64,000 bases of DNA, from contig WAIB01000003.1 of NCBI GenBank assembly GCA_009873655.1, forward strand, positions 1-64,000. Direction: 5' to 3'. The translations under genes and the position numbers were made by a program. The notes under the pieces were generated by a model. The model was given only the letters and a program-made list of their open reading frames with translations, was not told where the DNA came from and did not search any database. Shown here piece after piece: positions 1 to 6,657 of the stretch. The DNA is from Nitrospinota bacterium (GTDB taxonomy: Bacteria; Nitrospinota; Nitrospinia; Nitrospinales; VA-1). Each line of letters begins with the position of its first letter. Positions within the stretch are counted from its first letter, which is position 1.

Positions 1-951
1 GCACGCTATGGCCATGTGGGGACAATGCGTTTGTTAATCGAGCACGGTGCGAATATCGAAAATCAACTCCATGATGGCGCCACTCCTTTATTAATGGCTA
101 CGGGGGAAGAACATTCCAGGGCGGTCCATCTTTTACTGGAAAAAGGGGCAAATGTTTATGCTAAAGACTACGAAGGCAATCAACCCATTCTCCTTGCTGT
201 CTTGACCGGGCGTGCGGATATATTAGAGATTCTCATTTCAAAGGGGGCTGATCCAAATTCCAAAAATGCGTTTGGTGATCCCATTATTTTTTTAGCCGCC
301 GAACGGGGTTTTGCTGACTGCGTTAAAGTGTTGCTGGAATCCGGGGTGGATACAAACTTCCGTCTCAAAAATGGCTGGGCACCCCTTATGAGAGCCGCAA
401 AGTTTGGACGTGTTCGAGTCGCGGAAACATTAATAAATAAAGGGGCGGATGTAAACCTGGCGAGCAAAGGAGGGGCGACTTCATTGATGATCGCATCAGA
501 AAGAGGCGAGTTGGAGGTGGCGAAACTGCTGGTGGAGCACCAGGCTGATTTGAATGCAAAAAGTAGAAACGGCGCGACCGCGGTTATCAGTGCTGCCGCA
601 GGAGGACATGAAGAAATTGTTGCGTTTTTACTTGGTAAAGGCGCGGAGCTTCGTTCGCCAATAAATAATGGATCTACCGCGTTGATGGTTGCTGCAGAGC
701 GGGGTCATTTAAATACGGTAAAGATATTGATGGAACAGGGAGCGGATATTCAAGCCAGAAGCAACAAAGGGTGGACACCCTTAATGGTTGCTGCAGCCGG
801 GGGACATATTGAAATTACCAGACTGTTTTTGGAAAAAGGGGCCCGGTGGGATGTGGAATCAAAGGCAGGCTGGACAGCTTTAAAAGTTGCCGTCAAATTA
901 GGGAAGAAAGAAGTGGCCCGGCAGCTAATGGAGGCAGGGGCAGATAGGTAA
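1..951 (+). CDS. Ankyrin-repeat protein, 5' end outside window
   Basis: The reading frame is open from base 1 (the first codons read ARYGH, a normal ankyrin-repeat piece), so the GTG at 16 is probably internal and the gene begins upstream. What is visible is about nine consecutive ~33-residue ankyrin repeats with the usual G-TPL-AA--GH--IV--LL--GAD pattern and almost nothing else. No signal peptide or catalytic domain is seen in this part. Ankyrin arrays bind protein partners; no specific partner can be read from the sequence. It ends 5 bases before the convergent LpxC-fusion gene. The family call is firm and the role unknown. Confidence 0.85.
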   Translation, partial: ARYGHVGTMRLLIEHGANIENQLHDGATPLLMATGEEHSRAVHLLLEKGANVYAKDYEGNQPILLAVLTGRADILEILISKGADPNSKNAFGDPIIFLAAERGFADCVKVLLESGVDTNFRLKNGWAPLMRAAKFGRVRVAETLINKGADVNLASKGGATSLMIASERGELEVAKLLVEHQADLNAKSRNGATAVISAAAGGHEEIVAFLLGKGAELRSPINNGSTALMVAAERGHLNTVKILMEQGADIQARSNKGWTPLMVAAAGGHIEITRLFLEKGARWDVESKAGWTALKVAVKLGKKEVARQLMEAGADR

Positions 952-956
952 TGGAT

Positions 957-3164
957 TCAGTTTATCTCTGTAAGACTGTCGCGGATAATTTTGAGAAGAC
1001 CTACATTCTGGGTATGGCCTGACTTGCAAGCTTTGATCTTTCCACGGATTGGTTTTCCCAGCAGATAAAAATCGCCCAGTATATCCAGAATTTTATGGCG
1101 TGCGAACTCGTCTTCAAATCGCAGTTCGGTGTTTAAAACCTTGTTGTCTCCAAGCAATATAAAATTGTCCAGTTTGCCACCCGATGCATAACCCATCTTG
1201 GTTAATTGCGCGACTTCTTCCATAAACCCGAAAGTTCGAGCAGGAGCAATTTCTTTTTTAAAGCTCTCATCTCCCTGGAACTCGTAGGTGAAATCCTGAA
1301 TTCCTATGGGTTCAGGGTATTCCATATGATAACTGACGGAAAAATTATCGCTGGGTTCGATCGAAATGTAAGGGCCGCCTTTTTCCTTGTCGCCAAATGA
1401 ATAACACTTGTCAACGACAATTTCTTCGTAAAAATCGTCCTGGTCTTCAAACTCACCGTCTTCTAAAAGTTCGCAGAAATCCTTGGCCGAACCGTCCATT
1501 ACCGGGGCTTCATCACCAATTTTTATGAGCAGGTTGGTAACCCGGTACATATGCAAGGTGGCCATAATATGTTCAATGGTTCCAACCGAGTTTGCCCCTC
1601 TTTTCAGACAGGTGGAATAATCCGTAGATTGAACATTTTCAAGTTGCGCGGGAATAGTTTTTCCTGATGCGATATCACCAAAAATGATTCCGCTCCCAGG
1701 GGGCATGGGTTGTAGTATCAGCCCTGTTTTAATGCCCGAATGCAAGCTGCTTCCACATAGAACCACACTTCGTTTTAATGTTCTCTGCGGATATTTTTTT
1801 TGGGTAGAAGAAGAATCGACTTCCTGCATTTCAATGGAATGAAATTTGATTTTTTCCTGAAATTGTTTTTTGGTGGTTTTTAAAACTTTGCAGGTTTTAT
1901 CGATATCCCAATTGTTTCTTTTTAAATGGTGAAGAATAAAATGTTTTTCCCAGATTGTTTCCGCTTCTTGAAGTGATCCTACTTCGTTAAAAGAATTAAT
2001 ATCGATTTGATTCTGGGGTTTCCAGATTTCGGGAGGTAAATCCTGAATTCTAATGGTTTCCTGGTTTGCGCAGGTCAGGATCAGTTTTTCCAAAACATTT
2101 CGCAGCTCTTTTATGTTTCCCGGCCAGCTATAACTGCAAAGTGCGGTAAGAACTCCTTCTTCAATTTTTGGAAGAATGGTATTTAATTCCCGTTTTTTTT
2201 CTTCCCAAAAATCCCTCGTAATAACAGAAATACTCGCTGCGTGATTTCTTAAGGGTGGGATGAGAAGGGTGGTTTCCTTAAAACAGTCCAGCAGGCCCTG
2301 ATGAAACTTGCCCTTCGCGGCTAAATCCTCCAGGTTTTCAGCAGATGAAATAAAAAGCCTGCTGGGCAGGAATTCAAAACTGGAGCCGGGATGAGAAGCG
2401 TTTTGTAATGCCTCTGCAAGTTTTTCCTGAAGCCCTTTGCTGAGAGATTCTATGTTGCTAAGTAAAACGACTTTTTTTCCGGATGCTGAATCACTTCCCG
2501 GTTTGTTTTCTTTGTTCTTTCGTTTAAAAAGTTGGGTCTGGATGGCTTGTTTTTGACGGAAAGAACAATTCAATTTTACAAAAGGCAGATCCGCTTTCAG
2601 GCTTTGAGCATGTATGGCTCTGGCTACTGATTCTTTGCCTGTGCCCGTTTCGCCCAACAGCAAAACGGGTTCCAGGTGTTCTGAAAGTGCTTTGATACCC
2701 TTTTTAACTTCCACCATAGATTCAAAACAAACGGGAAGCTGCTTCAAAACCGCAGGAGATCCGGTTTCTTTTGTCAGTACCGATTTTTTTTCATGAAGAG
2801 CATTTTGAATGGATTCAGTGATTCGGTCGAGGGAAAAGGGTTTTTCTATAAAATCCTGGGCGCCCAGTTTTGTCGCTTTGACGGCAGTATCTATAGTGCC
2901 ATGGCCCGACATGATTAAAACTTCTACCCCCGGGTTATAGGTCTTTAAAGTTTTTAAGACTTCTATTCCATCCATCCCGGGCAACCAAATGTCCAGTAAT
3001 ACGAGGTCGGGAGGGTCTTTCTGGATTAATTCCAAAGCTTCCACACCGTCACCCGTCATGGAGACGTCATACCCTTCGTCAGATAATATTCCGGTCAGGG
3101 AGCTGACAATATTTTTTTCGTCGTCAACGATAAGAATGCGTTCTTTAGCCAATCTTTTCTCCAA
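957..3164 (-). CDS. lpxC: Response regulator / degenerate sigma54-type AAA+ / LpxC fusion
   Basis: A single 735-residue frame joins three parts. Residues 1-125 are a CheY-like receiver with phosphoacceptor D58. Residues about 130-390 are an NtrC-type AAA+ domain with Walker A GETGTGKES (171-179), but the GAFTGA loop is absent and the Walker B acidic pair is replaced by S236-N237. A Fis-like helix-turn-helix region follows (about 398-445). Residues 460-735 are a complete LpxC (UDP-3-O-acyl-N-acetylglucosamine deacetylase, the committed step of lipid A synthesis), with zinc ligands H532, H690 and D694, E531 and general-acid H717. Usual LpxC is about 300 residues and free-standing. It is last in a greA-trmB-lpxC operon with a 6-base gap after trmB. 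I infer an active deacetylase with a regulatory N-terminus that probably cannot activate sigma54 transcription. Confidence 0.9.
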   Translation of the reverse strand: MEKRLAKERILIVDDEKNIVSSLTGILSDEGYDVSMTGDGVEALELIQKDPPDLVLLDIWLPGMDGIEVLKTLKTYNPGVEVLIMSGHGTIDTAVKATKLGAQDFIEKPFSLDRITESIQNALHEKKSVLTKETGSPAVLKQLPVCFESMVEVKKGIKALSEHLEPVLLLGETGTGKESVARAIHAQSLKADLPFVKLNCSFRQKQAIQTQLFKRKNKENKPGSDSASGKKVVLLSNIESLSKGLQEKLAEALQNASHPGSSFEFLPSRLFISSAENLEDLAAKGKFHQGLLDCFKETTLLIPPLRNHAASISVITRDFWEEKKRELNTILPKIEEGVLTALCSYSWPGNIKELRNVLEKLILTCANQETIRIQDLPPEIWKPQNQIDINSFNEVGSLQEAETIWEKHFILHHLKRNNWDIDKTCKVLKTTKKQFQEKIKFHSIEMQEVDSSSTQKKYPQRTLKRSVVLCGSSLHSGIKTGLILQPMPPGSGIIFGDIASGKTIPAQLENVQSTDYSTCLKRGANSVGTIEHIMATLHMYRVTNLLIKIGDEAPVMDGSAKDFCELLEDGEFEDQDDFYEEIVVDKCYSFGDKEKGGPYISIEPSDNFSVSYHMEYPEPIGIQDFTYEFQGDESFKKEIAPARTFGFMEEVAQLTKMGYASGGKLDNFILLGDNKVLNTELRFEDEFARHKILDILGDFYLLGKPIRGKIKACKSGHTQNVGLLKIIRDSLTEIN

Positions 3165-3170
3165 ATGATT

Positions 3171-3821
3171 TCAGGTGGCGGAGGTCACAGGAGCCAGCCG
3201 TAAGTACTCAAGATAAAATATTTTTTCGCCGGCGTTGATATAATTTTTTTCGTATTTTGATTTTGGAAGATCCATGCGTTCTTTGAGAAAACCAAAATTG
3301 TCATCCATGTTCTGGAACCGCATTTCGGAATTAAAATATTCCAGCATCTCATGGGCGTACCTTTCGCTGTCCGTAGCCAGGCTGGCCTTTCCTTCCGGCC
3401 CCAGTTTGTTTGCCAAATGATTGATAAACTCCGGTTTGATCAATCTCCTTTTTATATGTCTTTTTTTAGGCCAGGGATCAGGGAAATTTATGTAGACCGT
3501 GTCCAGTTCTCCTTCCTGGAAAAGGTAAGAAATTTTATTACGGATATCACCATAGACGATCCGTATATTTTCCAATTGAAGGTTTTTAATGCGGGTCATG
3601 ATTTTTCTTATACCCTTATGGTAAAAATCGATACCAATAAAATTACTTCCGGGTTCTTTCGCTGCCATTTCAATCAGAAAATTACCCATTCCAAACCCGA
3701 TTTCGAGTTTCAGGGGGTTGGAATTTCCAAACAGGGTCGGCCAATCGGGCCTTTCATCCACATCCAGAAAAAAGGGATCGTGTTCCGCAATTTGTGCAAA
3801 TGAAATCAGTGGTTTTCCCAT
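3171..3821 (-). CDS. trmB: tRNA (guanine-N7)-methyltransferase
   Basis: This 216-residue Rossmann-fold SAM methyltransferase makes m7G46 in the variable loop of tRNAs. Motif I is EIGFGMGNFL near residue 40, followed by the acidic IGIDFYHKGI strand. The family hallmark INFPDPWPKKRH sits around residues 110-121, with RRLIKPEFI after it. Length is normal for TrmB. It starts 5 bases after the greA stop and ends 6 bases before the LpxC-fusion gene, so the three are almost certainly co-transcribed. Confidence 0.95.
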   Translation of the reverse strand: MGKPLISFAQIAEHDPFFLDVDERPDWPTLFGNSNPLKLEIGFGMGNFLIEMAAKEPGSNFIGIDFYHKGIRKIMTRIKNLQLENIRIVYGDIRNKISYLFQEGELDTVYINFPDPWPKKRHIKRRLIKPEFINHLANKLGPEGKASLATDSERYAHEMLEYFNSEMRFQNMDDNFGFLKERMDLPKSKYEKNYINAGEKIFYLEYLRLAPVTSAT

Positions 3822-3826
3822 GAGCC

Positions 3827-4318
3827 TTAATCCGAGTCCTCATCATCGGGATAATCGTGAATCGTTATGACTTTTAAAACTTCAAACTCCAATTTATTAT
3901 CTGGAAGGGGAACGATAACATCATCCCCTTCCTGTTTACCTACCAGGGCACGGCCTACTGGGGATGCCGCAGACAGTTTTCTCTCGTCAGGGTTTACCTC
4001 TTCCGGAAAAACCAGATGATATTTAATCTCTTCGCCCGTATTGAGGTCGCGAAGATATAAAGTGCTGCCCAGCCCGGACCGGTCATTTGGAATCTTGTCC
4101 AGGTTAATGGACGTGATATCGCTTATTCTTTTTTGCAGAAGAGACACCCGGGACTCCAGAAACATCTGCCTTTCCTTGGCAGCCTTGAACTCGGCATTTT
4201 CACTCAAATCACCATGCTCACGGGCAGTTTTTAAAGCTTTGGGTATGTCCACCTGCAGTTCTTTTTGAGACTCTTTTAATTCCTGATCCAGTTTATCCAA
4301 TATGGGAAGTCGAGCCAT
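3827..4318 (-). CDS. greA: Transcription elongation factor GreA/GreB
   Basis: The protein has 163 residues with the Gre architecture. An N-terminal antiparallel coiled coil contains AREHGDLSENAEFKAAKE; the conserved acidic D-E pair at its tip inserts into the RNA polymerase secondary channel and stimulates cleavage of backtracked RNA. A C-terminal FKBP-like domain follows (SPVGRALVGKQEGDDV). First gene of the operon with trmB and the LpxC fusion. GreA and GreB are hard to separate by eye; a single Gre gene in a minimal set is normally called greA. A GGAG lies about 10 bases before the ATG. Confidence 0.92.
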   Translation of the reverse strand: MARLPILDKLDQELKESQKELQVDIPKALKTAREHGDLSENAEFKAAKERQMFLESRVSLLQKRISDITSINLDKIPNDRSGLGSTLYLRDLNTGEEIKYHLVFPEEVNPDERKLSAASPVGRALVGKQEGDDVIVPLPDNKLEFEVLKVITIHDYPDDEDSD

Positions 4319-4724
4319 TGCTAATTCAACTCCAAAAAAAATCGATTTTTAATATTACTCAACATTGGGTCTTTTGACATAGGAATATTCTGCCTAATTT
4401 ATATGCTGCAAAGGTATGAAAATAGGGTTGGGAGTAGATTGAAAACCCCGGTAAGCCAGACTTTAAAAAATTCCTAAATCATTTAAACGCTTTCCTTTAG
4501 AAGAAAAAAAGTAGCTTATTGTAGGGGGTGAATTGCTTTTGGGTCAACAAAAATTTCCTGCCTTGATTTTTAAGACGCAAAGGCCTGCGTTAAAACTCCA
4601 ATTTGGCTTTAAATACTTGACCTTTAAGGGGATAAGCCGAAAAAATGTCCAATCAGTCAAATAAAGCTCTAAATAAACAAAAATCAATGGATATCAGTGT
4701 TGGTTTTTTGTTGCGTAAAGCTTC
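4319..4724. other. Divergent intergenic region greA / HDOD gene
   Basis: About 400 A+T-rich bases lie between the divergent greA and HDOD genes and should hold both promoters. On the plus strand a TTGACA occurs near 4373, and a possible small ORF begins at 4645. No strong hairpin or terminator is seen and no convincing -10 box could be fixed. Confidence 0.4.
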
Positions 4725-4728
4725 ATGA
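4645..4728 (+). CDS. Possible 27-residue upstream ORF overlapping the HDOD start
   Basis: ATG at 4645 is preceded by a purine-rich AAGGGGAT about 11 bases upstream and opens 27 codons (MSNQSNKALNK... ending KAS). Its stop TGA overlaps the ATG of the HDOD gene as ATGA at 4725-4728. The HDOD ATG itself has no clear Shine-Dalgarno sequence, so translational coupling is possible. The peptide resembles nothing I recognise. Low confidence: a frame this short can arise by chance. Confidence 0.25.
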   Translation: MSNQSNKALNKQKSMDISVGFLLRKAS

Positions 4729-5579
4729 AAGACAACCTTCTAAATTTATTAGAAACCAAGGGAGATTTGCCTCCTTTATCTGATGTCCTTTTAAAACTGG
4801 AAAACCGGGTTAATGACCCCAATAGTGATATTGAGGAAATTTCGGGCCTGATTCAAACGGAACCGGTTTTATCGGGAAGACTGATCAAGCTGTCCAATAG
4901 TGTGCTTTTTGGAGGGGGAAGGGACGAAGTTCATAATCTGGACGAAGCCATAATGCGATTGGGGATGAAAATGGTTTTGGATCTGGCTTATACCCTGGAG
5001 CTTCCTAAAGCATTTAAAAAGTCAAAATCTTTTGATCATATCCAGTTTTGGAAACATTCATTAGGCGTAGCCTATTTGTCCCGGTCGTTAGCGGTTCATA
5101 TGAATTCTCCAAAAGAAGACCTGGAGGTGAGCTATCTATCAGGTCTCATGCACGATGTAGGGATTCTGGTTTTTGATTACCTGGTTCCTGATGATTACTC
5201 GGAATTTATCAAAACGATGGCAGAAAGCGATAGAACCCTGAGCGAATTAGAAATAGAAAAGTTCGGTATCTCCCATTCCGAGCTTGGCGCGGAATTTGTT
5301 GGAAAATGGTGGCCGGTCTCTGAAACGGTGGTGAAGTCCGTAAGAAGGCATCATAATCCACCCCCCCAAAAGAAAATCAAACCGGGAATTCCCCGTCTGG
5401 TGAACTGGGCCAACCAAATCGCCAATAATAATGATATGAAAAATGGGCTTCCCATGCATTCCGATCCTCTGGATGAGAACCTTTTCCCGAGATTGAAATT
5501 GAGCGGGGAGGATTTGAACGAAATGGTGGAAAAAACGAAAGAGGGCGTTGAGGCGGCCCATATGATCCTGAAACGTTAG
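4725..5579 (+). CDS. HDOD-domain signalling protein
   Basis: This 284-residue protein is almost entirely an HDOD domain, a degenerate HD-phosphohydrolase fold found in bacterial signalling proteins linked to chemotaxis, c-di-GMP or stress responses. Visible landmarks are LPPLSDVLLKLENRV near the N-terminus, the IQTEPVLSGRLIKLSNS helix, HSLGVAYLSR, and an HDVG element near residue 144. No GGDEF, EAL or receiver domain is attached. It stands as a single gene. Enzymatic activity is doubtful for the family, and the partner is unknown. Confidence 0.85.
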   Translation: MKDNLLNLLETKGDLPPLSDVLLKLENRVNDPNSDIEEISGLIQTEPVLSGRLIKLSNSVLFGGGRDEVHNLDEAIMRLGMKMVLDLAYTLELPKAFKKSKSFDHIQFWKHSLGVAYLSRSLAVHMNSPKEDLEVSYLSGLMHDVGILVFDYLVPDDYSEFIKTMAESDRTLSELEIEKFGISHSELGAEFVGKWWPVSETVVKSVRRHHNPPPQKKIKPGIPRLVNWANQIANNNDMKNGLPMHSDPLDENLFPRLKLSGEDLNEMVEKTKEGVEAAHMILKR

Positions 5580-5682
5580 CTATTCGGTAAAGAGAATTTT
5601 ACAATATCCGAAAAAATTGATAAAACTATAAGTTTAACTCAACAAATCAAATATTTCCCGGGTTTCGGAATAAGCAGATTCG

Positions 5683-6657
5683 ATGACAGAAAGCATTTTT
5701 AAAGTAAGTTTTCATGGCGTAAGGGGGTCTATCCCCAGTCCTCTGACTCCTCCAGAGGTGGAGGAAAAGCTGTTGCGTGCCTGCCAGGTAGCACAGCCAG
5801 AGAACCTGAAGGATGAATCGGCCATACAGGATTTCGTCAAAGGTCTTCCCGTCGAACTAAGAGGGACTTTTGGGGGCAATTCTTCCTGTGTCTCGATGGA
5901 AGTGAATGGCGAATGCCTGATATTTGACGCTGGTTCCGGGATCAGGCTGCTGGGCCAGGAACTGATGGGCTGCGAATTTGGTCGCGGCCAGGGAAAAGCA
6001 AGTCTTTTCTTTTCCCATACCCATTGGGATCATATTCTGGGTATTCCCTTTTTCCTTCCTTTTTATATAAAGGGCAACAAGTTCACGATCCATAGTCCTC
6101 TGTCCGATATCAGGGAGCGGCTTGAAGGACAGCAGAAATCGGAATATTTTCCCATCCCGTTCAGTATTTATGAGTCGGACATCGATTTTGTGGTTCTGGA
6201 AGATAAGACCGAGCATATGATCGGTGATATTAAAATCACCTGGAAGGGCATGTACCATCCGGGACAATGCTATGCCTACCGGGTGGATTGTGGCGGCAAA
6301 TCGGTCGTCTATGCAACAGACGCGGAATATAAAAAACTGGGTTCCGGTGATTTAAAACCCGCCGTTGAGTTTTTTAAAGATGCGGACCTGTTGATTTTCG
6401 ATTCCATGTACACCTTCAGTGAAGGCCTGGAAAAAGAAGACTGGGGCCACAGCTCCACTTTTATCGGTGTGGACCTGGCCGTGGAAGCAAATGTCAAACA
6501 AATCGCTTTTTTTCACCACGAACCTACCTACAGCGATTTTAAACTCGTCGATATTTTCCGGCAGACAGAAAAATACCTGAAACTGGTGGCCCCGAAACAG
6601 GATCTCAAAATGTTCCTCTCCTACGAAGGTCTCACCATTGACCTGCACCAGGAATAA
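5683..6657 (+). CDS. Metallo-beta-lactamase-fold hydrolase
   Basis: The 324-residue protein opens with VSFHGVRGSIPSP and then TFGGNSSCVSME, the typical start of a cytoplasmic MBL subgroup related to PhnP, RNase Z and cAMP phosphodiesterases. The metal motif is HTHWDHILGIPFF (H-x-H-x-D-H), with later ligands in MYHPGQCYAYRV, VYATDAEY (Asp), DSMY and FFHHEP. No signal peptide is present. Substrates in this group are usually phosphodiesters, but the sequence does not say which. It is followed 6 bases later by the oxoprolinase gene, so the two may be co-transcribed. Confidence 0.85.
   Translation: MTESIFKVSFHGVRGSIPSPLTPPEVEEKLLRACQVAQPENLKDESAIQDFVKGLPVELRGTFGGNSSCVSMEVNGECLIFDAGSGIRLLGQELMGCEFGRGQGKASLFFSHTHWDHILGIPFFLPFYIKGNKFTIHSPLSDIRERLEGQQKSEYFPIPFSIYESDIDFVVLEDKTEHMIGDIKITWKGMYHPGQCYAYRVDCGGKSVVYATDAEYKKLGSGDLKPAVEFFKDADLLIFDSMYTFSEGLEKEDWGHSSTFIGVDLAVEANVKQIAFFHHEPTYSDFKLVDIFRQTEKYLKLVAPKQDLKMFLSYEGLTIDLHQE

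Follow-up and report, generated by a model that had tools for sequence, protein, structure and literature searches.

An NtrX-LpxC fusion in Nitrospinota and part of Desulfobacterota: a probable direct link from the sensor kinase NtrY to lipid A synthesis

Introduction

How is LpxC controlled when the enzyme is part of a response regulator? The question is raised by a frame in the 64,000-nucleotide stretch of Nitrospinota DNA analysed here (the window), in which a receiver, an AAA+ region and an LpxC domain follow one another. LpxC carries out the committed step of lipid A synthesis; it sets the supply of lipopolysaccharide and is an antibiotic target. In enterobacteria its level is set by FtsH proteolysis, and the E. 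coli enzyme carries a degron in its C-terminal tail. For bacteria other than E. coli and Pseudomonas, a passage of a 2025 review describes how LpxC is controlled in detail as still emerging (PMC12444477). A prediction made from the window alone (the original prediction) proposed that LpxC is controlled post-translationally by phosphorylation of the receiver, with ATP binding as a second input. The frame was followed up by comparison of domains, neighbouring genes, substitution rates and phylogeny across related genomes.

Results

One frame encodes a receiver, an AAA+ region and LpxC

Pfam models matched the window protein above their cut-offs at the receiver (residues 10-119), Sigma54_activat (149-292), the AAA lid (307-385) and LpxC (460-727). 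The single frame of receiver, AAA+ and complete LpxC was thereby found as predicted, and D58, H532, H690, D694 and H717 were verified, together with the further conserved residues D14, D15, S86 and K108 in the receiver and E531 and K691 in LpxC. Residues are numbered from the first TTG of the frame, which has no clear ribosome site; a second TTG four codons downstream has GGAG six bases before it and is the likelier start, so that D58 would become D54 if counted from there. The two genes upstream of the fusion (Table 1) are taken by us to be trmB-like and greA-like. An ankyrin-repeat protein is encoded at 1-951 of the window (plus strand), convergent with the fusion, and its cluster was present in 27 of the 58 grouped loci.

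Table 1. Position of the fusion gene, its domains and the adjacent genes in the window
Feature	Position	Strand	Remarks
ntrX-lpxC fusion gene	957..3164	minus	735 aa from first TTG; likely start TTG at 3152
Receiver domain, residues 10-119	2808..3137	minus	Pfam; phospho-acceptor D58 at 2991-2993
Degenerate NtrX-type AAA+ with lid, residues 149-385	2010..2720	minus	Pfam and alignment
Fis-type HTH remnant, residues 397-442	1839..1976	minus	limits read by eye from alignment
Complete LpxC deacetylase domain, residues 460-727	984..1787	minus	Pfam
trmB-like gene (presumed name), directly upstream of fusion	3171..3821	minus	stop codon 6 bases from first TTG
greA-like gene (presumed name), second upstream of fusion	3827..4318	minus	neighbour cluster

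The fusion in the window is genuine. It was also present in three single-contig genomes (G010, G048 and G058) and in chromosome record CP070799, and an assembly artefact or chance fusion was ruled out by its occurrence in two phyla and in one-contig genomes. The original prediction had named separate production of the two halves as a refuting case. Translation of LpxC from an internal start, which would make the fusion nominal, could draw on in-frame ATG 446, GTG 467 and TTG 474 in the window, and a start with a Shine-Dalgarno-like motif was found near LpxC in 16 of 107 fused rows (aligned sequences). However, none of the three starts in the window has such a motif, the 16 motif-bearing starts lie at scattered positions, and 28 of the 107 rows contain no start codon from 45 codons before LpxC to just inside it (L084 and L086 being cut rows). 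No internal start was conserved among the 107 fused rows, and we regard separate halves as extremely improbable; the product is treated below as one polypeptide.

The fusion occurs in two phyla

Exactly one LpxC match was found in 65 of 77 Nitrospinota genomes; it was fused wherever readable, all 61 rows that reach the receiver keeping it, and the named relatives are Nitrospina and Nitrospinaceae. Among the 12 genomes with no LpxC match, three show the N-terminus of the fusion, at contig ends in G065 and G075 and in a 309-aa frame in G054, and one, G003, is 99% complete in 650 contigs. Genome G024 (3.6 Mb, 10 contigs, 96% complete) has no LpxC match, yet LpxB, NtrY and DUF4390 match, which may reflect an assembly gap or a real loss. 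The same domain order, which the original prediction proposed to seek in relatives, was recovered as a long form (receiver-AAA+-LpxC) in 57 Nitrospinota and 11 Desulfobacterota rows, L109 being cut before the receiver.

Desulfobacterota were represented by 198 genomes, an even sample from the phylum of a Desulfobacteraceae MAG, and 183 of these had an LpxC match; phylum labels throughout were deduced from record titles. The receiver-LpxC fusion was seen in sequence in 44 (11 long and 33 short forms); four further genomes had a partial LpxC (G125, G175, G176 and G197), and in 135 the enzyme was classed as free from the length of its open frame. The sequence itself was read for 19 of these 135 and for the second copy of G129. 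In G129 a free lpxC (L207) lies in an lpxC-DUF4390-ntrY run and a fused one (L203) elsewhere. The very long frames (1007-1423 aa) of G138, G174 and G261 were not accepted as three-way fusions; those of G138 and G174 overlap ntrY in another frame. No fusion was seen in 100 Pseudomonadota genomes (96 with an LpxC match), judged by frame length: lpxC frames there were at most 406 aa except in G376, and the shortest fused Desulfobacterota frame was 418 aa. The 510-aa frame of G376 was rejected as a receiver fusion and proved to be a masked stretch joining lpxC and an apparent DUF4390 gene in one frame. This masked contig (L251, about 1-6000) reads ftsA-ftsZ-lpxC-DUF4390-ntrY, with the lpxC-ntrY neighbourhood joined to the division cluster; ftsA, ftsZ and the other gene names on it are our assumption.

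The N-terminal part is of NtrX type and is probably paired with NtrY

The best NCBIfam model for the N-terminus was NF051870 (NtrX), which scored 244.5 bits in the window protein, 364.5 in L066 and 273.5 in L192; its equivalog cut-off is 600, and all three fall below it, as does the unfused L235 at 506.7. The top solved-structure match was 5m7n ('Nitrogen assimilation regulatory protein'). NtrX was the best sequence match across receiver and AAA+, by which the N-terminal part of the fusion is identified as a derivative of NtrX. A quick NtrX tree without bootstrap placed 20 sampled fused N-termini in one clade; it did not show operon NtrX as their sister, the five operon NtrX in this tree being the five best unfused BLAST matches in the set. 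The original prediction had described the AAA+ as NtrC-like and had missed the NtrX identity, the partners (NtrY kinase and DUF4390 protein) and the spread over two phyla.

The NtrY-specific model PF19312 matched in 64 of 77 Nitrospinota genomes, once in each except for two matches in G018, and DUF4390 matched in 65 of 77. NtrY was found in 58 of the 65 LpxC-bearing genomes, the seven without PF19312 being G013, G014, G023, G049, G056, G059 and G060. One of these, G023 (L091, 91% complete), carries a receiver-LpxC without AAA+, and no match to PF19312 (NtrY_N), DUF4390 or LpxB was found in it. Families f7 and f9 share the class but not the order of the window genome; in them a DUF4390 gene and then ntrY immediately precede the fusion in the same orientation (ntrY directly upstream in 6 of 6 f7 and f9 genomes with both genes whole); further upstream, where the contig reaches, follow an epimerase and a mutS-like gene, labels that beyond the Pfam matches are our assumption. 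In G001 a gap of 4 bp separates a kinase C-terminus from the fusion frame downstream of it. Families f1-f4 have a split run: the fusion lies mostly downstream of greA-trmB, and the two loci viewed (L141 and L151) keep mutS-epimerase-DUF4390-ntrY with no adjacent regulator gene. A trmB-like cluster was present in 48 and a greA-like cluster in 46 of the 58 loci in the neighbour table, several of which are one genome from two collections. The window genome likewise has ntrY and the DUF4390 gene located away from the fusion, and for most Nitrospinota (f1-f4, ntrY unlinked) the pairing of NtrY with the fusion is proposed from orthology. Desulfobacterota fused loci with long flanks have ntrY adjacent in 10 of 17; in the other seven (L193, L198, L199, L201, L202, L203 and L210) adjacent ntrY was not seen. 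An ntrY partner gene, as is typical of NtrX, was present, adjacent or conserved, and the phospho-site motif HE(I/V)KN of the kinase was recovered from 40 of the 42 NtrY loci scanned, the exceptions being L149 (cut by a contig end) and L235.

Receiver and enzyme are equally constrained

The receiver was present in all 104 fused rows with a readable N-terminus, in both phyla, and intact in 102; three further fused rows (L084, L086 and L109) are cut by contig ends and stand outside the 104. D58 was found in 102 of these rows and was missing from L174 and from L197, whose frame opens inside the receiver; in these two Desulfobacterota sequences the receiver is broken in frame, by sequencing error or decay. 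All 61 Nitrospinota rows that reach the columns keep D15, D58, S86, K108 and P109, and D14 is D in 57 and E in 4, so that the residues of a phosphorylatable NtrX receiver (DD, D, S/T, K) are in place. Median dN/dS was determined in within-genus pairs by the NG86 method with our own script (119 pairs each for receiver, LpxC and AAA+ and 91 for HTH; ratios exclude saturated pairs, with 102-109 remaining for the first three and 71 for HTH) and was 0.037 for the receiver, 0.036 for LpxC, 0.124 for AAA+ and 0.094 for HTH. Since the medians of receiver and enzyme are near-identical, the two are equally constrained; the middle region drifts faster though under purifying selection, with the AAA+ ratio about 3.4 times that of receiver or LpxC. 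At the level of sequence comparison, the predicted post-translational control by a phosphorylatable receiver is supported.

Retention of the receiver while AAA+ and HTH were lost would also be expected of a mere docking module that tethers LpxC to the inner membrane by binding NtrY, with no phosphorylation switch, and a passage of the 2025 review mentions the suggestion that in Neisseria LapB (Ght) positions LpxC at this membrane (PMC12444477). But the phosphorylation residues themselves are conserved, as is the HE(I/V)KN motif of the kinase, and we consider docking alone unlikely. The receiver as a phosphorylation switch is the reading that we prefer.

The AAA+ region and the HTH are degenerate or lost

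In the AAA+ region of the window protein Walker A is kept, GAFTGA is absent and Walker B reads S-N instead of D-E. The disabled AAA+ described in the original prediction recurred in the long fused forms, with GAFTGA in 0 of 68, Walker B D-E in 0 of 68 and Walker A in 67 of 68. AAA+ is missing altogether from 37 of 104 readable fused rows, where as few as 22 residues separate LpxC from the aligned receiver; among Nitrospinota, G023, G067 and G068 are receiver-LpxC without AAA+ and G001 is receiver-HTH-LpxC. ATP binding as a second input did not hold as a general feature, the AAA+ region being fast-evolving and often absent despite the retained Walker A, which hints weakly at ATP as a general input to LpxC.

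The features of a sigma54 enhancer-binding protein (GAFTGA with Walker B D-E, and a C-terminal HTH) were not found. The fusion could still be a transcription regulator that carries LpxC along, for instance a sigma54-independent DNA-binding NtrX: NtrX elsewhere binds DNA, as reported in passages on R. sphaeroides (PMC7240162), and an HTH-like stretch persists in many Nitrospinota, giving an HTH_8 match of 20.8 bits in L079, below the cut-off of 22. However, this stretch is missing from many rows of f1, f2, f3 and f4, no HTH_8 match was listed by Pfam in the window protein even at E 10, GAFTGA and Walker B D-E are lost from all 68 long forms, and AAA+ is absent from other rows. We find a role in transcription hardly plausible, and regulation of the attached enzyme is preferred.

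LpxC is complete, single and short-tailed

PF03331 covered the window LpxC over model positions 1-266 of 268, and TIGR00325 scored 225.9 bits against a cut-off of 187.25. None of the 107 fused rows has lost a catalytic residue, and these residues line up with their counterparts in solved LpxC chains; seven residues are kept in all 130 fused and free rows, and E531, H532, H690, K691, D694 and H717 in 64 of 64 rows of Nitrospinota fused proteins. PF03331 matched once in the window genome (2.53 Mb, 92% complete), at the fusion, and a second lpxC, the other refuting case named beforehand, was found neither there nor in a single one of the 65 LpxC-bearing Nitrospinota genomes. Deacetylase activity of the fused LpxC is expected because the genome, which has LpxB, offers no other LpxC match.

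The tail after N720 measured 10-20 residues in fused rows versus a median of 37 in free rows, and was likewise short (14-19 residues) in the nearest free relatives L223, L226, L227 and L230. Because these relatives share it, tail shortening probably preceded the fusion, and tail loss as a regulatory swap for the receiver was dropped as an explanation. An AVLA-like C-terminal end was absent in the seven tails printed, the degron tail typical of FtsH-controlled enterobacterial LpxC was not found in fused rows, and the short C-termini would leave little room for an E. coli-type degron. With a LapB-like protein as query, such a protein was found in 11 of 12 Nitrospinota searched, the window genome included, so that a second control layer may exist. 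This finding would suit control of LpxC mainly by proteolysis (FtsH with LapB), the receiver merely tuning stability, but the short tails of the fused rows speak against it; we judge such control highly unlikely as the main mode, and switching through the receiver stays the favoured explanation. The LapB zinc-ribbon search alone was discarded as an indicator, being uninformative (it also matched in 10 of 14 control genomes); the zinc-ribbon match in the window genome presumably resembles RadA. In two LapB-like sequences of Nitrospinota (L253:70-1542 and L254:1116-2513) about 70-90 residues with two apparent membrane helices precede the stretch matched by the LapB models.

A single fusion, most likely beside ntrY-ntrX

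An LpxC-domain tree was calculated from 130 of 135 domains (five were left out: L208-L210, which duplicate L172, L184 and L163, and the fragments L123 and L124). All 107 fused domains formed one clade (100/100) with 0 of 23 free ones inside, and Nitrospinota formed a clade with Desulfobacterota rows L164 and L168 (100/98). The nearest free LpxCs were L226, L227, L230 and L223 (joining node 100/100), the grouping with L223, a long branch, being weak (77/14). Descent of all sampled fused LpxCs from one NtrX-LpxC fusion is thus supported by the sequences. Two of the four nearest free lpxC (L226 from G213 and L227 from G265) lie in lpxC-ntrY-ntrX runs, no such run was found at the locus of L223 (L241), and ntrY is next to free lpxC in 7 of 22 loci examined. 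GAFTGA, Walker A and Walker B D-E are all preserved in the five NtrX that lpxC-ntrY-ntrX runs encode.

The fusion most likely arose in a lineage with lpxC beside ntrY-ntrX. A rearrangement would have been needed because lpxC is upstream of ntrY in the runs and downstream of the NtrX part in the fusion. Long and short fused forms differ by at least 6 changes on the tree, which are read as AAA+ losses because NtrX is long. Present-day genomes would still show the successive stages, from free lpxC next to ntrYX through the fused gene and the form without ATPase motifs to the form without AAA+; on the simplest reading, the transcription function was given up after fusion and selection maintained the link between receiver and enzyme.

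Discussion

In marine nitrite-oxidising bacteria and some relatives a sensor kinase probably switches the LpxC enzyme directly and not its gene. Architecture, partner genes, constraint and motif loss are seen in the sequences; phosphotransfer, its effect on LpxC activity and the sign of that effect are what we infer. The periplasmic DUF4390 protein would tune the membrane kinase NtrY, and NtrY would phosphorylate and dephosphorylate D58 of the fused receiver. The altered conformation or dimerisation of the receiver would change the activity or the membrane placement of the LpxC domain, and lipid A flux would be set directly by the envelope sensor. The predicted structure of the fusion had a pTM of 0.38, too poor for showing contacts. 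That NtrY directly switches LpxC through the fused receiver, making the protein a response regulator with LpxC as its output, is in our estimation quite probable. The broader proposal, that in most or all Nitrospinota and part of Desulfobacterota NtrY and DUF4390 switch LpxC allosterically within a single chain, replacing the transcriptional control that NtrX exerts elsewhere, we consider probable.

Response regulators with enzymatic outputs include CheB and the GGDEF, EAL and HD-GYP proteins, and to our knowledge LpxC is not among the output domains of this group. Domain databases may already list a receiver-LpxC architecture automatically. No report of a receiver-LpxC fusion was found in the open-access literature as represented by titles, abstract beginnings and passages, and 'fusion' or 'fused' does not occur in the main text of the 2025 LpxC review, which does note effects of NtrYX on lpxC transcription (PMC12444477). 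In R. sphaeroides, according to passages of the report, deletion of ntrYX raised the lpxC transcript 8.8-fold; NtrYX thus lowers it, apparently indirectly, with no binding site found upstream of lpxC (PMC7240162). By analogy with this alphaproteobacterial system, phosphorylation might restrain LpxC, which we take as a weak prior. Control by sigma54 is predicted for LpxC-type genes in Myxococcia in a passage of a 2025 survey (PMC12316311). The fusion hard-wires the NtrYX-LpxC link in one protein and is conserved across a phylum of nitrite oxidisers; it seems a clear instance of a transcription regulator converted to an enzyme regulator and offers a system for testing how lipid A flux is set by such a sensor of the envelope.

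Among known systems, standard LpxC shares with the fusion the full domain and the catalytic residues; the fusion adds an N-terminal receiver, has a short C-terminus and forms a distinct clade. Row L206 (Verrucomicrobia) is presumably of the LpxC-FabZ kind. In bifunctional LpxC-FabZ (NCBIfam PRK13188) LpxC is also fused, but FabZ follows LpxC and there is no receiver. CheB, GGDEF, EAL and HD-GYP regulators combine receiver and enzyme in one chain, as the fusion does. A regulator is tied to lpxC in a sulfate reducer as well, but DVU2934 of Desulfovibrio vulgaris is a separate protein acting on the lpxC gene, described in passages of one study as its single target, with lpxC directly upstream of the orthologous operon in S. 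fumaroxidans (PMC3333781). NtrYX (PlrSR) with PlrP has the same NtrX-type receiver and AAA+ core, an NtrY kinase and a DUF4390 gene upstream of ntrY. The Bordetella DUF4390 protein PlrP is described as acting, by genetic criteria, as the third member of the NtrYX system PlrSR, and beta-proteobacterial NtrX is likewise without AAA+ in passages of that source (PMC13001219). Unlike NtrYX (PlrSR), the fusion has the enzyme LpxC as its output and has lost GAFTGA and the Walker B acids.
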